The notes beneath the pieces are model-generated. The model was not told the DNA's origin and made no database searches. It was given only the letters and a program-made list of their open reading frames with translations. Below are positions 21,898 to 30,863 of a stretch of DNA of 30,863 nucleotides, one piece after another. Within the stretch, counting starts at the first letter, position 1; every line of letters starts with the position of its first letter. Position numbers and translations under genes: made by a program. Source of the DNA: a virus; the IMG/VR virus record IMGVR_UViG_3300025133_000425, positions 1 through 30,863 of that record. One strand, 5' to 3'.

Positions 21898-21928
21898 CTT
21901 AATCCTCCTTTAAAAAGTGTTATAAAAC

Positions 21929-21997
21929 CCCGCCCTCCGTCTCACCGTGGAGTCTGCGAATACCCGCGCGCTTTCTCCCCGTATCGCAGAGGGCGGG
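21929..21997 (-). other. Extended RNA hairpin element in the gap between minus-strand genes
   Basis: CCCGCCCTC (21929-21937) pairs with GAGGGCGGG (21989-21997), 9 bp. TGCGAATAC (21955-21963) pairs with GTATCGCA (21981-21988), 8 bp with one bulged A, stacked directly on the first stem on one side. The other side carries a 17-nt bulge, and the terminal loop is 17 nt. On the minus strand it is followed by TTTTAT and a second T5 run. It may act as a terminator, a leader regulator of the 63-aa gene or a small RNA. A second short hairpin (GTCC/GGAC) lies at 22012-22023. The whole non-coding gap is 21898-22027. Confidence 0.55.
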
Positions 21998-22027
21998 ATT
22001 GCCCGTACACCGGTCCGTAGGGACGAG

Positions 22028-22765
22028 CTACTTACTTTTCCCCTCTTGAAAACTAAATTCATTCTCCCCAAGACTTCTTACAATATACGAAGGGTCAGGA
22101 AATGGTCGCTGCTTCCCACCCTCTGGTCCCTTGTTTGATACTCCTCGACCCCACATCCCAAAGGGTAACCGTACTCCAGGATCCTTGAACACCCACAAGT
22201 GGTACTGATTAGCACCATCTACAACACGAGACTCCGCAGGGTAAAGCTCTACTGCTTCGTTCTCGGGACCGACCAGAGCATTCTTAATAGCCCACATGTC
22301 TCGCCAGTCATGCATGGTTTCAATATCTCGACGTTTAATGCTCAGGTGGATCATGTCAGGCCATTCCTGTTCAGGATCCTTCTGCACATTGCCCTGGTCA
22401 AAAACTGCAACTTGGTAGGTATCATTTCCCCAAAGAACAGCTTGGTCACATCGAGCAAATGCATAATCAATTTGTTCCTGAGAACAATTCATTTCTTTCA
22501 ACCAATCTTGTTGTCGTTGCCTCGACTCAGGAGATTCCTCCAGTCGCTGAAGCGTCATCCACTCCCAGGTACGTTCAAGCTTCTGCACCTCTGCAGACAT
22601 AATCTCTTCAGCCAGATCAGCAGCATGTATTTGTTGCTTATCAAGCTGTTCCACAGGTGCTACATGTGTTCCTCCAGAATCTTGTGTTTCTGGATAATTT
22701 GCACCATGTAGTCTTTTCAAATCTTTTGGTATTGCGCCAACAATTCTTTTACCTTGAATAGCCAT
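22028..22765 (-). CDS. Conserved phage protein (DUF7694-like)
   Basis: This 245-residue protein starts immediately after the csrA-like stop (TGAATG) with AAGGAG inside the upstream gene. The middle contains WPDMIHLSIKRRDIETMHDW, then MWAIKNALVGPENEAVELYP and VVDGANQYHLWVF. This run (Ser-Ile-Lys-Arg, His-Asp-Trp-Arg, Lys-Asn, Glu-Ala-Val-Glu-Leu-Tyr-Pro, Tyr-His-Leu-Trp) is one I associate with a widespread phage domain of unknown function, I believe DUF7694. Its first ~100 residues are helical. No enzymatic role is known to me. Confidence 0.65.
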   Translation of the reverse strand: MAIQGKRIVGAIPKDLKRLHGANYPETQDSGGTHVAPVEQLDKQQIHAADLAEEIMSAEVQKLERTWEWMTLQRLEESPESRQRQQDWLKEMNCSQEQIDYAFARCDQAVLWGNDTYQVAVFDQGNVQKDPEQEWPDMIHLSIKRRDIETMHDWRDMWAIKNALVGPENEAVELYPAESRVVDGANQYHLWVFKDPGVRLPFGMWGRGVSNKGPEGGKQRPFPDPSYIVRSLGENEFSFQEGKSK

Positions 22766-22960
22766 TCAGTTCTCCTTATTACTTTTCCAACGACGAACAC
22801 GTTTAGCCAGGGGTGGTAACTCAAACCGGGAGATTCGAACCTCCTGGGGAGCAACAATCCGTAAGCTCACGCTTCTACCAGAGACCTTGTGGATTTCGAC
22901 ATACACATCGTCACCCAACTTAATCCCCTGTCCTAAATTCCTTTTTAAGACCAATGCCAT
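22766..22960 (-). CDS. csrA: CsrA/RsmA-family RNA-binding regulator
   Basis: This 64-residue protein aligns along its first ~50 residues with CsrA. It has MALVLKRNLGQG for the first strand, then IKLGDDVYVEI, VSGRSVSLRI, and APQEVRISRFEL for the RNA-binding region (E. coli: APKEVSVHREEI). Arg corresponding to E. coli Arg44 is kept; the Arg7 position is Asn. A basic tail (LAKRVRRWKSNKEN) replaces the usual C-terminus. CsrA dimers bind GGA in mRNA leaders and block or stabilise translation. The gene overlaps the upstream stop by one base (TGATG), with GGAGG just before, so it is coupled. The ATG at 22960 is preferred over an upstream TTG. Confidence 0.8.
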   Translation of the reverse strand: MALVLKRNLGQGIKLGDDVYVEIHKVSGRSVSLRIVAPQEVRISRFELPPLAKRVRRWKSNKEN

Positions 22961-23718
22961 CAAATCAAACCTCCTTGTCCAATCATACGGGGCTGCGGAA
23001 GAACGGAACGAACAGGTAGCAACCCTCGAAACCTGTTCATTGAAGTCATCTGCGTCAGTGGTGAATTCTTCTTCACATGGTACGTGAATGCCTGAAGTAG
23101 AGCATAGCTAGTCCCTTGGCCATGTTCTGCGAAGGTAGGATTGCGGTACTCCGCATCAACTTTTCCAATTCGACTCCAGGGCATCAACCGTTGTCGTCCT
23201 GCTTCCATGAGAATTGTATTAACTGACTTCTGGGGAAGCTGAGTCTCCTTCAGACCAGCAACGACTCGATCAATCCCTATTACCTGTTTTCGGTATTCAT
23301 CCAGAGAATCTTGAATTTCATTCTCTAAATTGAAACCTATAGTGTGCTTCTTACGCATCACGATCTGACCAGTCGCCATACCATTCAAACAACATTTAAC
23401 ATTAGCTCCTGCAACCATGAGCAGTGATCGTTTCATGGCATTACTGGTGAGGATCCCTAAAGACAGGGACATCCCCTCAGGAAGCTTCACATCATTAATC
23501 TTGAGATCCAGGGCACCAGCCATCTCTGTCTCATTCGGAGAGACTGAGAACTTGGTATCTTTGACCTCCCACCCTCGTTTCTCAATAGCAGTCACCAGCG
23601 ACTTAGCCAAGGCACCATGAGGGATTCCTGCCCAGCGTAGTCCTGCCTTCTCAGGTCGTCGCAGGGGGATGTGGTGAAGATCTTCCAACTTCGTGTTCGC
23701 ATCATAGACAGTAATCAT
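22960..23718 (-). CDS. DUF932-like phage protein
   Basis: This 252-residue protein has the pattern of the DUF932 (phage/plasmid-like TIGR03299) family: an N-terminal alpha/beta region (AKSLVTAIEKRGWEVKDTKF), then SLGILTSNAMKRSLLMVAGA, then KCCLNGMATGQIVMRKKHTI. The family's 'v.C.NGm......r.rHt' feature appears as CCLNGM...KKHT. Its biochemical role is unknown; members are common in phages and plasmids near replication genes. It uses the same 23-nt leader as the next gene upstream. The stop overlaps the csrA-like start. Confidence 0.6.
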   Translation of the reverse strand: MITVYDANTKLEDLHHIPLRRPEKAGLRWAGIPHGALAKSLVTAIEKRGWEVKDTKFSVSPNETEMAGALDLKINDVKLPEGMSLSLGILTSNAMKRSLLMVAGANVKCCLNGMATGQIVMRKKHTIGFNLENEIQDSLDEYRKQVIGIDRVVAGLKETQLPQKSVNTILMEAGRQRLMPWSRIGKVDAEYRNPTFAEHGQGTSYALLQAFTYHVKKNSPLTQMTSMNRFRGLLPVRSVLPQPRMIGQGGLI

Positions 23719-23744
23719 AGTTCGACTCCTTAAGATTGGTTAAG

Positions 23745-24002
23745 TTAAGATTTAACGAGATTAGGAAGTAGTTTACCTAGTCCCTCTGGGACCAAGGTGA
23801 TGTCCTTGATATGGACTTCTGCCTCCAGCTTGTTTTCGAGGTGATGTCTTGCTGTTAACAGAGCAGCACCTTCATCACTTGCTTGCACAAAGAGAACTTT
23901 GTACGAGAGTTTGCCATAGATATCAGGTGCCCTTTCGACAGCCTCAACATGGGATTGCGAATGCCATCGCACACGCCATTTGTATTCTGTAGTCTTTTTC
24001 AT
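23745..24002 (-). CDS. Hypothetical protein
   Basis: This 85-residue protein starts MKKTTEYKWRVRWHSQSHVE and carries AAGGAG about 8 nt before the ATG, in a leader shared with the DUF932-like gene. It has a short alpha/beta pattern (YKVLFVQASDEGAALLTARH, EVHIKDITLVPEGLG). I do not recognise the family. The gene lies within the helicase-csrA operon. Confidence 0.6.
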   Translation of the reverse strand: MKKTTEYKWRVRWHSQSHVEAVERAPDIYGKLSYKVLFVQASDEGAALLTARHHLENKLEAEVHIKDITLVPEGLGKLLPNLVKS

Positions 24003-24013
24003 AGTTCGACTCC

Positions 24014-24310
24014 TTAAGATTGACGGTAATTCTTACGAGTGACATCAACACGATAGTCACCAAAACCAACTTTCTTCTCCAGACCTAATGCTTCGATTAA
24101 CTTTTTGGATGACTGCAATAGGTTCCCAAACAGATTTCGATCAAAGCGGTCAGTCCACGTGTACTGAAGCACTTCGTATCGATCCTCCAGTACAACCGAC
24201 ACTTGTTTCTTTACCACTGCCTGTTCTTCAGGAGACAGGGCAAGGAAGTTTGCAATCCCTACAGCCATGGTCTGTCCTACGTGATACTGTTCCATTGACA
24301 CCGATCCCAT
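24014..24310 (-). CDS. Hypothetical protein following the helicase gene
   Basis: This 98-residue protein starts MGSVSMEQYHVGQTMAVGIA. The ATG at 24310 is preferred over 24331 because AAAAGGAGG lies just upstream and the longer start would overlap the helicase. It has a helical N-terminal part (NFLALSPEEQAVVKKQVSVV) and a basic C-terminus (DYRVDVTRKNYRQS). Its stop (TAA) lies within the 23-nt leader of the next gene. No family is recognised. Confidence 0.6.
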   Translation of the reverse strand: MGSVSMEQYHVGQTMAVGIANFLALSPEEQAVVKKQVSVVLEDRYEVLQYTWTDRFDRNLFGNLLQSSKKLIEALGLEKKVGFGDYRVDVTRKNYRQS

Positions 24311-24323
24311 GCTGATCCTCCTT

Positions 24324-25844
24324 TTAACCAACCATAACCAAACGATTAAGACTGCGGGTTACCGCAACATACTTGATGTTCATTTCCTGGTGCTTCTCCC
24401 ACTCTAGCTTTGCCATCGGGTGAGGCATCTTGGAAGGCTCCAGGATGAACACTGTCTCTGCTTCCAGTCCTTTAGCACGATGAACCGAAGAGAGCAGGAC
24501 AATGTCTCCCACGGTCTCGACATCAACGAACAGACTCTTGATACGATCAATGACATCCTCAACGGTCGTCTGTCCCTCACAGAGGAACTGGATGCAACTA
24601 ACCTGATCCTGGAGCAACTCCACCTGGATTTCAGTGGGACGATTCTGAGCAAGCAGTCGAGCAGTCTCTCGATCCAGGTACTGTTCTACTTTCAGATGAA
24701 GTTCTTCCACGGTTGTCTTCTTCCCAGCGATCTTCTTGATCATGCTGATCAGTCCTCGCTGGAAATCTCGTCCCTGAATATTGACAGGAAGACCTGCTTG
24801 CAGAAGTCGCAGAGCAACTCCCATCAGTGGTGCATTCATTCTGCAGATGATCAAATCACCTTTCTTTACCTGATCAAAAAGAACGCCATGAGCGATGGTA
24901 TCAATGACACCCTCCTTGGCATCATCCATTGCCTTGAAGTCAGGGACAATGTCCTTAGCAAGGTCGACATGCGACTTGGGACAACGACGACTAACAGTTA
25001 AAGGCATTACCTTGACTCCATGAGGTTCGTCTCCCAATTCCCGTTCCATGTTCCTCATGGATTCAGCGTCTGCTCCAGTGAAGCCATAGATCGCCTGTCG
25101 ATCATCACCAACCAAGACCAAACGTCGAGCAACCTTCATTGCTAACAACTGACGAGAACGATTGAGATCCTGCGCCTCATCAACAAAGAGAACATCAACC
25201 TTGGGGATGCGTACATTCAGAACGATTGGTAGCCAAATCATGTCGTCAAAATCGACCCCAACTCCTGGGCCAAATTCCTTGCTCTTCTCTAGCACCCTGG
25301 GAAGCACTCGCAATACTTCTTCTTCTTTTCCATTAAGGTGAATCCCATAATGGGTAATCATGTCTTCAAACTCTGCCTGGGTGTAACACTCCATGAGCAT
25401 GGTGTTCTTCGCAAGCGAGACAACCTTCTCAATGATCTGAACAAAAGCTAGTACATCCTTTTTGAATTCTCTTCCCTTGCCAACCTTATAGCCCATCTCT
25501 TCCAGGATGTTCCTGGTCTTCCAGTTGTTACCAATCTTCCCCATCTTGGAACCAGTCTGGTAACCATGTTGACGCAGTGCATGTAGACCTAACGAGTGCA
25601 TAGTCTGCGCTTCAACCTGCTCGGGAACTTTCGTCTGCAGTTCAGTTGCAATAGACTTATTGTACGCAACCATCTTCATGACAAACTCAGGATGCTTATC
25701 CAGCATACGATGCGCACCTTCAATACAGGAAAAGGTTTTCCCTGTACCTGCTCGTGCCTGAAGGATAAGATGGGAGGAACCGTTGGTCAGTTCTTCCCAA
25801 AAGTTTTCCTGCTCAACAGAACCTTGGATCTTGGTAGCAACCAT
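24324..25844 (-). CDS. SF1 DNA helicase, UvrD/PcrA-like
   Basis: This 506-residue protein contains a full SF1A motif set: a Q-motif-like EQENFWEEL, motif I ARAGTGKT (residues 30-37), motif II VLFVDEAQD, motif III VLVGDDRQAIYGFTGAD, a motif IV-type SRRCP, motif V SVHRAKGLEAETVFIL and motif VI YVAVTRSLNRLVMVG at the extreme C-terminus. It is shorter than UvrD/PcrA (~700) and lacks the long C-terminal extension and parts of domains 1B/2B. These enzymes unwind DNA 3' to 5' using ATP in replication or repair. ATG 25844 is preferred: AAGGAGG lies 7-8 nt upstream, whereas ATG 25889 has none. Confidence 0.85.
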   Translation of the reverse strand: MVATKIQGSVEQENFWEELTNGSSHLILQARAGTGKTFSCIEGAHRMLDKHPEFVMKMVAYNKSIATELQTKVPEQVEAQTMHSLGLHALRQHGYQTGSKMGKIGNNWKTRNILEEMGYKVGKGREFKKDVLAFVQIIEKVVSLAKNTMLMECYTQAEFEDMITHYGIHLNGKEEEVLRVLPRVLEKSKEFGPGVGVDFDDMIWLPIVLNVRIPKVDVLFVDEAQDLNRSRQLLAMKVARRLVLVGDDRQAIYGFTGADAESMRNMERELGDEPHGVKVMPLTVSRRCPKSHVDLAKDIVPDFKAMDDAKEGVIDTIAHGVLFDQVKKGDLIICRMNAPLMGVALRLLQAGLPVNIQGRDFQRGLISMIKKIAGKKTTVEELHLKVEQYLDRETARLLAQNRPTEIQVELLQDQVSCIQFLCEGQTTVEDVIDRIKSLFVDVETVGDIVLLSSVHRAKGLEAETVFILEPSKMPHPMAKLEWEKHQEMNIKYVAVTRSLNRLVMVG

Positions 25845-25901
25845 AGTGTCCTCCTTATACGTTTCAATAATCAGACTTTTAATATCCAACCTCTATTATT
25901 C

Positions 25902-25930
25902 ATACTACCAGTTATACGGATTACTGTCAA
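25902..25930 (-). promoter_or_regulatory. Leftward promoter for the helicase-csrA operon
   Basis: On the minus strand a TTGACA -35 (25925-25930) and a TAGTAT -10 (25902-25907) are separated by 17 nt, with TGG just before the -10 (extended -10). It points toward the helicase start at 25844 and lies back-to-back with the rightward promoter. Confidence 0.6.
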
Positions 25931-25951
25931 ACCCAAAAATACGGTTTGACA
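25925..25951. promoter_or_regulatory. Inverted repeat containing both -35 boxes (possible operator)
   Basis: TGTCAAACC (25925-25933) and GGTTTGACA (25943-25951) form a perfect 9-bp inverted repeat with a 9-nt spacer. Each arm holds one promoter's -35 box. A dimeric regulator binding here would control both divergent operons. Confidence 0.5.
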
Positions 25952-25974
25952 ATCTTTTTGTATTATGCAATAAT
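25946..25974 (+). promoter_or_regulatory. Rightward promoter for the replication operon
   Basis: TTGACA (25946-25951) and AATAAT (25969-25974) are separated by 17 nt, with TGC before the -10 (extended -10). It lies 27 nt ahead of the first rightward gene (ATG 26001, AAGGA SD). Confidence 0.65.
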
Positions 25975-26000
25975 GAATGAAGTCCAGTAAGGAATGAAAC

Positions 26001-26168
26001 ATGTCAAAGAAACTCACCGCAGTCGAAAGAATGAATCGGTTCCATAATAAGAAAGGTAGCCCTCCCCATGCCCACGATGAACAAAGCGACAGCAAAAAAG
26101 AAGGCAAAGCAAAAAAGAAAAGTCGACCAAGTCGACCCAGCAAACCTCGATCAGATTCTGAAGATTGA
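26001..26168 (+). CDS. Small basic protein, first gene of the replication operon
   Basis: This 55-residue protein begins MSKKLTAVERMNRFHNKKGS and is rich in Lys, Arg and Ser (KAKKKSRPSRPSKPRSD). It has an AAGGA SD 7 nt before the ATG and sits directly behind the rightward promoter, so it should be strongly expressed. It overlaps the next frame by ~100 nt. Function unknown; DNA binding plausible. Confidence 0.55.
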   Translation: MSKKLTAVERMNRFHNKKGSPPHAHDEQSDSKKEGKAKKKSRPSRPSKPRSDSED

Positions 26169-26559
26169 GAACACACCAGACCCTGCCAGAAAATCCTGGC
26201 ACAAAACATGTGGCAAGAAAACCAAGCTAGGCATCATGGCTTTCTGGGCAACCCTCTTCGAGGGCAATGAACTTCTCCCCAGGAACAAGAAGATGACCAA
26301 TGCTGAAATTGAACGACAGGTTCGTCTTGAGTTTCCTCATGAAGAAACTCTCATGGAGAACCTGGACTCTGGTCGACAGACCGTCAACTATTATCGACAC
26401 CTGTACAACGTAGGGAAACTGACTAAGCCCAGGGGAGCCCCCCCGAAGCACATTAGTTTTCGTTACAACGAAACAGGTAAGGTTGTCGACACTCGTTCAG
26501 GGAAACGTGCCCTGAGTAGTGATGAACACGATGCTCTTTTGGAGAAATATAATGCGTGA
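26068..26559 (+). CDS. Probable DNA-binding phage protein, start uncertain
   Basis: This frame encodes up to 163 residues. Its 5' part overlaps the preceding gene and it has no clear SD. A core reading KKMTNAEIERQVRLEFPHEE, then NYYRHLYNVGKLTKPRGAPP and GKRALSSDEHDALLEKY looks like a helix-rich DNA-binding domain with a terminal helix, a pattern I have seen in other phage proteins. The overlapping N-terminus (PTMNKATAKKKAKQKRKV) is basic in this frame too. It could start at 26068 or 26077, at a later ATG (26236), or be joined to the first frame by a shift. The end (GTGA at 26556-26559) abuts the resolvase frame. Confidence 0.55.
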   Translation: MPTMNKATAKKKAKQKRKVDQVDPANLDQILKIENTPDPARKSWHKTCGKKTKLGIMAFWATLFEGNELLPRNKKMTNAEIERQVRLEFPHEETLMENLDSGRQTVNYYRHLYNVGKLTKPRGAPPKHISFRYNETGKVVDTRSGKRALSSDEHDALLEKYNA

Positions 26560-26630
26560 CTTTTTGTTACTCGGTATCTGGTGGGAGCTATTGTGCCAAA
26601 GTGCTGCCAACGAACGAAAGCAAAAAAATC

Positions 26631-27092
26631 ATGAGCCTCAAGTCGAAGAGAGCGTATCTAGGGATCGACCCAGGACGGGCAGGTGGGATAGCGTTAGTTT
26701 GGGCAGACGCCCAACAATACGAAGCGTGGAAGATACCAGAGTCTGAACGAGACCTCTGGGACATCCTCAATAACCATGTCCGACAGTACACCGTGTTCGC
26801 AATGATCGAGAAGGTACATTCATCTCCCCAGATGGGTGTACGGTCTGCGTTCAGTTTTGGTAGATCTTATGGAACCTTGCGAGGCATGCTTAATGCCTTG
26901 GAACTTCCCTTTGATGAAGTCAGTCCTGTGAAATGGCAGAACTGGCAGAAGTGTAGAACAGGAGGAAATAAGAACGTCTCGAAAAGTAGAGCCCAACAAC
27001 TTTTCCCTAACTTGAAGATGACACACGCAATCGCAGACTCACTGCTGATCGCAGATTACTGTCGTCAGATAAGGCTGGGACTAGTTAGATAA
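26631..27092 (+). CDS. RuvC-like Holliday junction resolvase
   Basis: This 153-residue protein, counted from the ATG at 26631 (MSLKSKRAYLGIDPG), has the RuvC/RNase H fold acidic set: Asp13 in GIDPG, Glu60 in IEKVH, and His132/Asp136 in THAIADSLLIADY. These resolve four-way junctions by paired cuts. A longer GTG start at 26556 would add 25 residues that do not look like the family. I picked 26631 by motif position because neither has a strong SD. It sits in an operon with a RecB-type nuclease and a Sak4-like ATPase, which supports a recombination or replication-intermediate role. Confidence 0.75.
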   Translation: MSLKSKRAYLGIDPGRAGGIALVWADAQQYEAWKIPESERDLWDILNNHVRQYTVFAMIEKVHSSPQMGVRSAFSFGRSYGTLRGMLNALELPFDEVSPVKWQNWQKCRTGGNKNVSKSRAQQLFPNLKMTHAIADSLLIADYCRQIRLGLVR

Positions 27093-27116
27093 AAATTTTA
27101 GCCTGGAGACCGAACG

Positions 27117-28127
27117 ATGGGAAAGAAGAAAACAAAGAAGAAGACATTTGCTGAGACAGTGAAGAAGAAGACCAAGAAGAAACCATTTCGCAATGTTAAG
27201 GAAGATGGAGTGACCTACTCCTTCCTCGACGAATGGTTACTGGATCGTGAACAAGCTCGCCTCTCCTACGTCGAGGGGTGGTCGTCATCAGGATTAGCAG
27301 TCCCCCTGGACTTTGGTCTCGCTTTCCACGATTGCCTTGAGTGGATTGCCAAGGGACGTTCCCCCAAGACGATCAAGAAAAAGATTCTGGATCCTTACTT
27401 CGAGCGAAGGATGGAATCCAAAAACAAACTGCGTCCTGATGAAGTAACCAAGCTTCGAGAACTTCTGTCGACAGTGAAAGTACTCTTCGAGGAGTACGCT
27501 CATTACTACAGCGACACAGACAAAGATTTCCAATACATCTTCCAGGAAGCCTCGTTCAAGGTAGACCATACACTCCCCTCGGGACTCACCATGCCCCTTC
27601 GAGGGAGGTGGGATGCAGTCTACAAGGAGAATGGGAAGATCTGGTTGATGGAGAACAAGACCAAAGGACAGATTGACGAAGAAGGAATCCTGGCGTCACT
27701 CCCCTTCGATCTGCAGACCATGCTCTACGTATACTGTCTCCAGAAACACCTCGGTCAGAAAGTTGAGGGAGTTCTCTACAACGTCATTAGACGACCTGGA
27801 CTCCGCAGGAAGAAAACAGAACAGATCGAGGAATTTGTTGATCGCATACAAGATGATGTGGTCAAACGACCTCATCACTACTTTATGCGTTGGAGGGTTG
27901 AATTTCTTCCAGAGGACATAGAGAATTGGGTTTCGAAAAGTTTGGATCCGATCCTCGAACAGGTGATGCAGTGGTGGCTCTCCATCCAGAGCAACCCTTT
28001 CGAGCCTTGGGATTCGCCCTTACACTATCAGAATCCTTCTGCGTTGTTCACTCGTTATGGACGCAGCAGGTACTTTGACTTGATAACGAGAAACCGAACG
28101 ACAGGTCTTTACCGGAGGGAAAAGTAA
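27117..28127 (+). CDS. PD-(D/E)XK nuclease, RecB/Cas4-type
   Basis: This 336-residue protein has a Lys-rich N-terminus. The motif series is His71 in LAFHDCLE, Asp166 in GRWDAVY, Glu179-Asn-Lys181 in LMENKTK and Gln200 in DLQTMLY. That is the order H-D-ExK-Q of the RecB/Cas4-like exonuclease superfamily. I see no four-cysteine iron-sulfur cluster of Cas4, so the fold call is clearer than the subtype. It probably resects or trims DNA during recombination. The SD-containing leader CTGGAGA precedes the ATG, and the stop overlaps the next start (TAATG). Confidence 0.75.
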   Translation: MGKKKTKKKTFAETVKKKTKKKPFRNVKEDGVTYSFLDEWLLDREQARLSYVEGWSSSGLAVPLDFGLAFHDCLEWIAKGRSPKTIKKKILDPYFERRMESKNKLRPDEVTKLRELLSTVKVLFEEYAHYYSDTDKDFQYIFQEASFKVDHTLPSGLTMPLRGRWDAVYKENGKIWLMENKTKGQIDEEGILASLPFDLQTMLYVYCLQKHLGQKVEGVLYNVIRRPGLRRKKTEQIEEFVDRIQDDVVKRPHHYFMRWRVEFLPEDIENWVSKSLDPILEQVMQWWLSIQSNPFEPWDSPLHYQNPSALFTRYGRSRYFDLITRNRTTGLYRREK

Positions 28128-28960
28128 TGGTTCGAACAAAGAAACTAAGACGCAAGAGAACGAAAGAAGCAATGTCTGCGGTGGTCATCCCCACTGAGAA
28201 GAACATTCCTTCCAAGAACTTTGCAGACTACTGTGTTTGTCTGTACGGAGAAAAGGGAATCGGGAAGACACACTTGCTGAGTGAATTTGACAACTCGCTC
28301 ATTATGATGTTGGAACCCAAGCGACGAAACCTAAAGATCAGGCAAGTCAACATTCGACCAATGGGGATGAAGGAACTCAACTCAGAGAGCCCTGTAAAGA
28401 CCCCCTGGCAAACTCTGCAGGACTATATCGCTGCCATCCTGGACGACGACAGCGTTCAACATGTAGGCATCGATACCGTGGACAGGGCACATGAGATGTG
28501 TCTCCTGCATCACTGCTACCAGAAAGGTGTGTCACACCCCAACGATCTTAATGATTACGGAGCGACATGGCATGCCATCAAAGATGACTTTGAAACCACA
28601 ATGAACAAACTGCTGTACGCAGATAAAGGATTGGCATTCGTCAGTCACAGTCATCTGCGGGAAGTTGAAGGCAGGGATGGACTCACCCAGTGGATCCCTA
28701 CTTGCCCACCAGCTTGCTGGAAGTACATTAAGGCAGTCTGTGACTTTGCACTGTACTACGGATACTCGGGAGGTAAGGACCGAGCAATTACTATTCGAGG
28801 GAATGATCTTGTCTGGTCTGCCTGTGGGACCGAGGATCACTTTTTAACCAAGGGAGGGGAACCGATCTCACAATTCTACACAGGTACTTCACAGAAGGTC
28901 GCATTCGACAATCTGTGTAAAGCTTTTACTAACAAACTTTCTGACGACCAAATTATTTAA
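28127..28960 (+). CDS. Sak4-like RecA-type ATPase (phage annealing protein)
   Basis: This 277-residue protein contains Walker A GEKGIGKT (residues 41-48) and a Walker B-like VQHVGIDTVDRA further on. A Sak4-type region AFVSHSHLREVEGRDGL follows. It matches the AAA_24/Sak4 group of phage nucleotide-binding proteins, which help single-strand annealing and recombination together with an SSB. It is followed at once by an SSB-like gene, the usual Sak4 partner arrangement. The first ~15 residues are basic (RTKKLRRKRTK) and may be an extension. Family membership by motif and context. Confidence 0.7.
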   Translation: MVRTKKLRRKRTKEAMSAVVIPTEKNIPSKNFADYCVCLYGEKGIGKTHLLSEFDNSLIMMLEPKRRNLKIRQVNIRPMGMKELNSESPVKTPWQTLQDYIAAILDDDSVQHVGIDTVDRAHEMCLLHHCYQKGVSHPNDLNDYGATWHAIKDDFETTMNKLLYADKGLAFVSHSHLREVEGRDGLTQWIPTCPPACWKYIKAVCDFALYYGYSGGKDRAITIRGNDLVWSACGTEDHFLTKGGEPISQFYTGTSQKVAFDNLCKAFTNKLSDDQII

Positions 28961-28971
28961 GGAACCTAAAA

Positions 28972-29667
28972 ATGGCTAGAACTAATACCAACGCTGGCTT
29001 CGCATCCGCAATGACCAAGATTGACAAAGGAGCTTTCTCCCGAGCCAGGGAAGTCAAAGACAATCGTGGATCATTTGAGAAACCTGAGATCGAGGATGGG
29101 ACTTACGTCTCGACCCTTGTCTCTGCTCGATGCGGAGTCGACAAGAACTCCAATGGCTATGCAGCCTTCGACTTTGAAGTAAGTCGTGGAGATTACGAGG
29201 GAACCCGAGTGAGTAAGTTTCACTCGATTGCAGAACGTGGCAATCGTACCGTGGAGCAAGCTCTCCAATCCTTGTTCATCGATCTGCAACGATTGATTCC
29301 TGACGAGGACTTCACGGAGTTCTCCGCAGAAGATATCGAAGCTGTTGTATCGCAACTGGCAGAGAGTACCAAAGAATCAGGTATTACTTACCAGATTGGT
29401 GTGAAGAATAATGGTAACTTTCTCAACACCTTCATCAACAAACGACTTGATGAAGAGCATGGTTACGAGACAAAAGAAGAAGAGGGAGACGAAGAGTTAA
29501 TTCCTGAGAAGGGTGATATGGTTTTCTTTCAACCACCCCGAACCAAGTCTTCCCAGGAATTCACTGTGACCTCAGTCGCTGAGTCCAAGCGAACGGTTAC
29601 CTTGAAGAGGACTAAGGATGGCAAAGTGTTCAAGACGATCTCCTTTGATCATCTTGAATGGGAATAG
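28972..29667 (+). CDS. SSB-like / DUF669-type single-strand DNA-binding protein
   Basis: This 231-residue protein has an AAGGAA SD. Residues ~35-85 (FEKPEIEDGTYVSTLVSA, YAAFDFEVSRGDYEGTRV) follow the pattern of phage DUF669/OB-fold SSB proteins: 'pdG.Y.a.v.....t..G......feV..G.y.Gr.v'. An acidic segment (KEEEGDEELIPEKGD) follows, then a C-terminal beta domain (EFTVTSVAESKRTVTLKRT). It should coat single strands in replication and recombination and work with the Sak4-like ATPase upstream. The call is from pattern and position. Confidence 0.65.
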   Translation: MARTNTNAGFASAMTKIDKGAFSRAREVKDNRGSFEKPEIEDGTYVSTLVSARCGVDKNSNGYAAFDFEVSRGDYEGTRVSKFHSIAERGNRTVEQALQSLFIDLQRLIPDEDFTEFSAEDIEAVVSQLAESTKESGITYQIGVKNNGNFLNTFINKRLDEEHGYETKEEEGDEELIPEKGDMVFFQPPRTKSSQEFTVTSVAESKRTVTLKRTKDGKVFKTISFDHLEWE

Positions 29668-29761: not shown

Positions 29762-29980
29762 ATGGACGATGGAAACCGAACATGTACTGTTTGCCAAGGG
29801 CCATTCAACTTGGATAGCGAAGGTGGAATGGAGGGGAACTTTGGAATTTTGCCTGTTGCGTTTTGTCCAACCTGTTACGCATGCTTAATGGACATGGCAC
29901 AACAGTTGCTTTACCTGGAATGCCCTCACTGTGGCAAATCATATGACGAGGAACCGAACGATGGATCACCTAGCAGTTGA
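29762..29980 (+). CDS. Small multi-cysteine zinc protein
   Basis: This 72-residue protein is read from ATG 29762; an upstream GTG frame start adds a hydrophobic stretch that lies in the terminator region and is not credible. It has three CxxC pairs: CTVC (residues 8-11), CPTC (35-38) and CPHC (55-58), plus Cys at 41. At least one zinc site is likely. It overlaps the polymerase start by 20 nt in another frame, so it is coupled to it. The role is unknown; a polymerase- or transcription-related adaptor is conceivable. Confidence 0.6.
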   Translation: MDDGNRTCTVCQGPFNLDSEGGMEGNFGILPVAFCPTCYACLMDMAQQLLYLECPHCGKSYDEEPNDGSPSS

Positions 29981-30863
29981 TACGGAAACAACAGGCGTGG
30001 ATCTGTTCCATGCAGCAGTACCTTTTGCAGTGAGTGCTTGTGACGAAACTGGAAAGACATGGTTCTGGGAATGGAAGGTTAATCCCCAGACCAGAAAACC
30101 CAAGGTGCCCAAGAAAGATCTAGAAGAGATCAAGGATGTTCTTGCAGGTAAGGTACTGGTCTTCCATAACGCCAAGTTCGATCTAAGGGCTCTTGCTAAT
30201 TTGGGAATCTCAATTGGTTGGGATACCTGGACTACGCTCCTGAACAAACCTGCCATTGAGATTGCAGGACTTGAGGATACACTACTTGCTTCCCATGTCT
30301 GTGATAGTAATGAACCCCATGGCCTTAAGTATTTAGCAGAAGAGTATCTGGGCATCATGGACTCCGACCAGGAAGAACTTCTGGAAGAGGTTCGCTCTGC
30401 TCGTAGATTCGCCAAGGCACAGGGGTGGGTATTGGGGCAAGCCAAGAGCAACACCAGTAGCGTTCACTGCGATTACTGGATGCCTCGTGCAGCCTTCGAC
30501 TCTGACGTATTGGAAACCTACGCAGTACAAGACGCAGTCCGTACTATGCTCCTCTGGAAGATGTACGAAGAAGTCATGCAGCAAAAGGAATTAGCGGAGC
30601 AATACAAGCTGCGGAAACAATTAATCCCCATCTCATTTGATATGGAGAACTCGGGTGTGTCGATCAAGCCTCGTACACTCAACAATGAAATCAAACGCTA
30701 CCTGCAAGCTGCTCAGGATCAGGAAAAAGAATGTTTCAAGATCATCAGCCATTTGGTCGATGAAGACTTTAACATTCGTTCAGGTATCCAACTCCAGAAA
30801 GTCCTGTATGGGGATCAGGAAGCTTCCTCTGCAGCAAAGCGTAAAGGTCTGGGGTGCAAGATC
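29961..30863 (+). CDS. polA-like: Family A DNA polymerase, N-terminal part (3'-5' exonuclease)
   Basis: The frame is open from the ATG at 29961 (GAGGAA SD) to the right edge, 301 codons, so the polymerase palm is outside the window. The exonuclease signatures are all present: ExoI Asp7/Glu9 in LAVDTETTG, ExoII Asp74 in VFHNAKFD and ExoIII Tyr187/Asp191 in YAVQDAVRT. The subsequent KQLIPISFDMENSGVSIKP segment is the linker ahead of the thumb seen in phage PolA-type enzymes ('l..vl..mE..Gv.id'). It replicates phage DNA with proofreading. No 5'-3' exonuclease domain precedes it. Confidence 0.85.
   Translation, partial: MDHLAVDTETTGVDLFHAAVPFAVSACDETGKTWFWEWKVNPQTRKPKVPKKDLEEIKDVLAGKVLVFHNAKFDLRALANLGISIGWDTWTTLLNKPAIEIAGLEDTLLASHVCDSNEPHGLKYLAEEYLGIMDSDQEELLEEVRSARRFAKAQGWVLGQAKSNTSSVHCDYWMPRAAFDSDVLETYAVQDAVRTMLLWKMYEEVMQQKELAEQYKLRKQLIPISFDMENSGVSIKPRTLNNEIKRYLQAAQDQEKECFKIISHLVDEDFNIRSGIQLQKVLYGDQEASSAAKRKGLGCKI

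Follow-up and report, generated by a model that had tools for sequence, protein, structure and literature searches.

Genes flanking the divergent intergenic region

The DNA analysed here (the window) is a whole IMG/VR virus record of 30,863 bases. Because the record is classed as linear, it is possibly a fragment. A short intergenic region separates a leftward from a rightward transcription unit. The features of this part of the window are as follows.

22766-22960, minus strand: CsrA-like regulator, in the leftward unit (phrog_9500, E 1.9e-7)
24324-25844, minus strand: UvrD-like superfamily 1 helicase; opens the leftward unit, with its ATG at 25844 preceded by AAGGAGGA
25845-26000, no strand: divergent intergenic region, 156 bp; G+C 32% versus 46% for the window
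26001-26168, plus strand: basic ORF of 55 aa with which the rightward unit begins; protein not conserved
26068-26559, plus strand: 163-aa protein with no assigned function (phrog_28737, unknown function, E 0.00067)
26556-27092, plus strand: RuvC-like Holliday junction resolvase (phrog_1770, E 2.4e-23)
27117-28127, plus strand: PD-(D/E)XK exonuclease (Pfam/PHROG family matches)
28127-28960, plus strand: Sak4-like ATPase / annealing protein (Pfam/PHROG family matches)
28972-29667, plus strand: possible SSB (phrog_378, E 0.00019)
29931-30863, plus strand: DNA polymerase, truncated where the record ends (phrog_17, E 7.7e-26)

In the leftward unit, the helicase is followed by small genes without assigned function, a 252-aa protein and the CsrA-like protein. 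The first conserved gene of the rightward unit encodes the 163-aa protein, which is 62-67% identical to its counterparts in the relatives described below. Its structure model is of low confidence (mean pLDDT 48.4, pTM 0.25). The 55-aa ORF and the 163-aa gene are read in different frames and share 101 nt, at the start of the latter. The small ORF found at this place in the relatives is longer, and its overlap with the gene is slight or absent. When the whole window was searched against Rfam at the gathering thresholds, no match was obtained, and the window contains no tRNA or tmRNA.

Several other features of the window should be mentioned. A long GC-rich hairpin with TTTT at its end lies between two minus-strand genes (21915-22035, minus strand; -49.4 kcal/mol, z -2.17; no Rfam match) and is possibly a terminator or a structured RNA. 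An identical 19-base leader, CTTAAGGAGTCGAACTATG, is located ahead of two consecutive minus-strand genes (23716-23734 and 24000-24018, minus strand); the mean number of such repeats in shuffled sequences was 0.00. Furthermore, a second divergent region, also of 156 bp, is present at 1343-1498. On its plus strand, a TTGACA box at about 1433 precedes a small basic ORF and the structural genes.

A divergent promoter pair in the 156-bp region

Two predicted promoters and an inverted repeat were located within the intergenic region.

25902-25930, minus strand: predicted leftward promoter; 10/12 match; P 0.003 versus local shuffles
25946-25974, plus strand: predicted rightward promoter; 11/12 match; P 0.007 versus local shuffles
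25925-25933, plus strand: left arm of the inverted repeat, TGTCAAACC; bases 1-6 are complementary to the minus -35 box
25943-25951, plus strand: right arm of the inverted repeat, GGTTTGACA; bases 4-9 form the plus -35 box

The minus promoter consists of TTGACA (25930-25925), a 17-nt spacer and TGG-TAGTAT, and its -10 box ends at 25902. The plus promoter consists of TTGACA (25946-25951), a 17-nt spacer and TGC-AATAAT, and its -10 box ends at 25974. In both, TG is placed one base ahead of the -10 box. Both sites therefore conform to sigma70-type promoters with an extended -10 (a TTGACA-like box, a spacer of 16-18 nt, a TATAAT-like box and TG); the consensus used was that of sigma70 (TTGACA/TATAAT), from which the preference of the host's sigma factor may differ. 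Judged by sequence, these are two outward promoters in a single intergenic region serving two genes, that is, a divergent pair. Downstream of each promoter is a gene with a plausible ribosome-binding site. If transcription starts 7 nt after the end of the -10 box, the start sites would be at about 25981 (plus) and 25895 (minus), 86 bp apart.

We then compared the promoter pair with chance expectation. By a weighted matrix, the two promoters are the top-scoring sites of the 156-bp region by a wide margin, and the P values given above (0.007 for plus and 0.003 for minus) were obtained with this matrix against 300 shuffles of this AT-rich region. Exactly two sites in the 30,863-bp window match at least 10/12 positions and carry the TG, and these are the present pair; Markov-shuffled windows contain on average 0.41 such sites. 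None of 150 Markov-shuffled windows contained an outward pair whose -35 boxes are separated by 0-60 bp, and such a pair was likewise absent from all of 3000 shuffles of the 156-bp region. Because of the individual P values and the result with the 150 shuffled windows, the promoter pair exceeds chance.

A preliminary description of this DNA had reported back-to-back promoters with both -35 boxes in a perfect 9-bp inverted repeat, 17-nt spacers and extended -10 elements on both sides, between helicase/csrA and replication genes. The sequence and coordinates agree with this base for base, the matches are 10/12 (minus) and 11/12 (plus) with TG on both, and the flanks were also described correctly: UvrD-like and CsrA-like genes are on the left, and RuvC-like, Sak4-like and DNA polymerase genes are on the right.

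The inverted repeat and the -35 boxes

The arms TGTCAAACC and GGTTTGACA are perfect over 9 bp, are separated by 9 bp and lie 18 bp apart from centre to centre. Six of the nine arm pairs are the -35 boxes themselves, which are separated by 15 bp; the repeat beyond the boxes consists of three pairs, ACC/GGT. Two consensus -35 boxes pointing apart always form an inverted repeat of at least 6 bp. Therefore, the repeat alone is no evidence of an operator.

We estimated how often the additional three pairs would arise. When two -35 boxes facing away from each other were simulated at the gap of the window with the local base composition, arms of at least 9 bp were formed in 7% of cases. In 300 shuffles of the region, the P value for a best perfect arm of at least 9 bp was 0.057. 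In the window, there are eight perfect 9-bp inverted repeats with a loop of 3-30 bp (including two that form one overlapping repeat) versus a mean of 4.0 in 15 shuffles; thus, a 9-bp inverted repeat is not rare as such. Beyond the two boxes, the repeat is not clearly in excess over chance, and it is probably in the main a by-product of two identical consensus -35 boxes that point apart.

The IMG/VR viral collection contains 22 stretches of the form TGTCAAACC-N7-11-GGTTTGACA. None of the 22 has a -10 box of at least 4/6 matches at 16-18 nt on both sides. The repeat does not travel with such promoters as a regulatory element.

Related contigs and their gene order

Among annotated phages, blastn with positions 24300-27100 detected no nucleotide relative and tblastn with the 163-aa protein gave no match. 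The helicase matches 148 phage records, all with less than 60% identity. No relative of the 163-aa protein was found in genome contigs. In IMG/VR, a scan with the 163-aa protein of the window alone found nothing, and alignment-based scans succeeded. A scan with the Sak4-like protein yielded L061-L063 (55% identity), three contigs that are at least 99.85% identical to each other and belong to one virus. L067 and L068 were obtained with the L063 exonuclease as a query, and L069-L072 with an alignment of the 163-aa protein. In total, nine IMG/VR contigs encode the 163-aa protein, and a rescan with a wider alignment gave the same nine. Because L061-L063 are one virus, the nine contigs represent five relative lineages besides the window: L063, L067 with L068, L069 with L070, L071, and L072. 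Two later scans, one of them this rescan, gave no new lineage with the locus; the other added two distant helicases (L090 and L091).

Seven of the nine contigs were scored for promoters: L063 (for its three contigs), L067, L068, L069, L070, L071 and L072. The comparison does not include L061 and L062 (the same virus as L063), L064-L066 (on the contigs of L061-L063), L073-L077 (contigs already used) and L082-L091. Thirty-seven helicase loci (L002-L038), the best segments of which show 27-39% identity, also lie outside it.

In L063, L068, L069, L070 and L071, the helicase gene diverges from the small ORF and the 163-aa gene. L072 has a small ORF (identified by eye) between its helicase gene and the divergent region, and no helicase was found in 10.9 kb of L067. 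Across six aligned relative loci, the helicase is 52-56% identical.

The divergent regions of L067 (3440-3623) and L068 (3443-3626) are nearly identical. At the place of the L068 helicase, L067 has other small genes behind the same minus-strand site. On comparison of the two sequences, this is an apparent gene replacement behind a retained promoter region.

Promoter sites in the relatives

In all seven contigs, a plus site with a 17-nt spacer was found whose -10 box ends 31-40 nt ahead of the first plus-strand ATG. Similarly, all seven have a minus site with a 17-nt spacer whose -10 box ends 49-64 nt ahead of the first minus-strand ATG. The P values of the plus sites are 0.26 (L063), 0.08 (L067), 0.05 (L068), 0.04 (L069), 0.05 (L070), 0.007 (L071) and 0.27 (L072). 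Those of the minus sites are 0.037 (L063), 0.02 (L071), 0.44 (L067), 0.35 (L068) and 0.63 (L072). In L069 and L070, the minus site that matches in position has a score of 5.3 (P ~1); among the minus sites of L069 it ranks third. Because most minus sites in the relatives are individually no better than chance, the case for promoters in these contigs rests on position and synteny. In favour of the minus sites are their common position and, as judged by eye, a CGATA at the -10 that all five relative lineages share; this CGATA is absent from the minus promoter of the window.

The gap between the -35 boxes is 35-48 bp in the relatives versus 15 bp in the window; for L069 this uses the positionally matching minus site, and the best-scoring L069 pair has a gap of 79 bp. 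The exact inverted repeat, searched with a spacer of 5-30 bp, is found in none of the seven relative records, so that the window is the sole carrier among eight records. Since the sites match in position and the exact repeat is absent from the relatives, the divergent promoter layout appears to be a property of the phage group, and the palindrome, as far as seen, would belong to this one virus.

Another palindrome recurs in the divergent regions. A AAATTCAGAATTT-like element is exact in L069, L070 and L071 and has two mismatches in L072. The window contains such an element at 25867-25879 (three mismatches, by eye) and also at 1397-1409. In several relatives it is placed directly downstream of the inferred minus start, and it is also found beside another TTGACA promoter (G004:C1:8934-8946 and G005:C1:36286-36298). 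As an operator candidate, this palindrome may be preferable to the repeat at the -35 boxes.

Interpretation of the promoter pair

We propose, with a probability of about two in three, that the locus consists of two divergent host sigma70-type promoters in a compact arrangement, at which RNA polymerases compete, and that the inverted repeat is mainly a by-product of their identical -35 boxes pointing apart. Transcription by host RNA polymerase would proceed from the plus promoter to the right, into the recombination/replication unit, and from the minus promoter to the left, into the helicase/csrA unit. Both promoters may be active early in infection, when they would be recognized by the host polymerase. 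The 15-bp gap would put the upstream (alpha-CTD) contacts of one polymerase on the -35 region of the other promoter. Because the alpha-CTD region of each promoter is the -35 region of the other, simultaneous occupancy is unlikely. The balance of the two units may therefore be set by competition between polymerases and not by a dedicated dimer. Such competition needs no dedicated protein and is the simplest means by which the compactness could have an effect.

The preliminary description had interpreted the repeat as the operator of one dimer. According to this reading, a dimeric phage or host protein on 25925-25951 would cover both -35 boxes and shut off or activate the two units together. The perfect 9-bp arms, 18 bp apart from centre to centre and placed exactly on both boxes, are consistent with it. 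So are short inverted repeats in two relatives that touch the plus -35 box. In L069 (3669-3694) the sequence is CTGTCA-N14-TGACAG and in L070 (3671-3696) it is TTGTCA-N14-TGACAA; both finish on the plus -35 box, and the outermost pair differs between them with complementarity kept. However, the arms of these two repeats are not longer than in shuffled sequences (P 0.85-0.89), and TGTCA-N10-22-TGACA occurs at seven places across the eight records versus five for a reversed control. In the window itself, the three pairs beyond the boxes have a P value of about 0.07, with six of the nine pairs being the boxes, and copies of the arm with at most one mismatch are not in excess (five found versus 9.0 expected). 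Conservation of the repeat, on which the preliminary description had made its operator depend, was not observed in any of the seven relative records, although at protein identities of about 50-67% an operator could have drifted. The suggested binder, the small basic protein at 26001, fares no better: its identity to the small ORF in this position in the relatives is about 20-22%, and it matched no family in Pfam or PHROG. The repeat also differs from an operator of the lambda OR type, which would be present in related or multiple copies and conserved apart from the promoter boxes. Accordingly, we regard a shared operator at the -35 boxes as unlikely.

It is distinctly improbable that one promoter only is active, or that a phage factor later takes over both, with the symmetry being incidental. 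In that case the leftward unit could really be controlled by the AAATTCAGAATTT-like palindrome, which lies just downstream of the inferred minus start in several relatives. Against this, both promoters widely outscore the other sites of the region, and each is followed by a gene that has a plausible ribosome-binding site. The spacing of the promoters offers another explanation. If the -35 boxes were whole helical turns apart, the polymerases would be on the same face of the DNA and would compete or cooperate, and this spacing would be the conserved feature. The gaps for the window and the five lineages are 15, 48, 46, 37, 37 and 35 bp, with L067/L068 and L069/L070 each counted once and L069 represented by its third-ranking minus site. 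Their circular concentration at a period of 10.5 bp is reached by 0.6% of random gap sets for six lineages, and by 1.5% when three gap classes only (15, 35-37 and 46-48) are used. However, the phasing was noticed afterwards, the independent lineages are few, and the result depends on which weak -35 box is accepted: the best-scoring L069 pair has the 79-bp gap, and the plus promoter of L063 can be read with a shorter spacer. For these reasons, the phasing is only a lead, and we consider this explanation very doubtful. In its most extended form, which is speculative and has little chance of being correct, the whole group would hold both units under back-to-back promoters at a whole-turn separation, and polymerase competition, with or without a dimer, would set their ratio; the window would then be the most compressed case, in which the -35 boxes have merged into a palindrome. 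We retain competition of host polymerases at a compact promoter pair as the preferred reading. For an uncultured phage group, the locus offers a clean, small test case of how polymerases compete when promoters stand back to back.

Comparison with known divergent promoters

In lambda, the start sites of PR and PRM are about 82-83 bp apart; the promoters are accompanied by a set of three related operators and flanked by cI and cro. The pair in the window resembles PR/PRM in that two sigma70 promoters face apart, interference is likely and the inferred starts are about 86 bp apart. In contrast to lambda, no adjacent repressor gene was identified, the single repeat coincides with the -35 boxes, and the flanking genes are those for the helicase and replication proteins instead of cI and cro.

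The overlapping divergent promoters Pr and Pc of pLS20 likewise control two transcription units from a short region, and for this system the regulator RcoLS20, its operators and DNA looping are reported to have been shown by experiment (PMC4207663). Unlike that system, the window pair is predicted from sequence, and no regulator was identified for it. A further type is the bidirectional promoter with a symmetrical -10, in which the -10 region is shared and the starts are usually 18 bp apart (PMC10268837, PMC12825309). Divergent initiation from compact symmetrical DNA is common to both, and in those promoters one polymerase can exclude the other (PMC10268837, PMC12825309). A shared -10 was ruled out for the window, where the separate -10 boxes end at 25902 and 25974. 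In contrast to the promoters in these reports, those of the window do not share a -10, and it is their -35 boxes that are symmetrical.

A limited literature search found nothing on the exact -35-symmetric arrangement, which does not imply its absence from print. Overlapping or adjacent divergent promoters are well described, and the pair in the window is one more example, with its symmetry centred on the -35 boxes.
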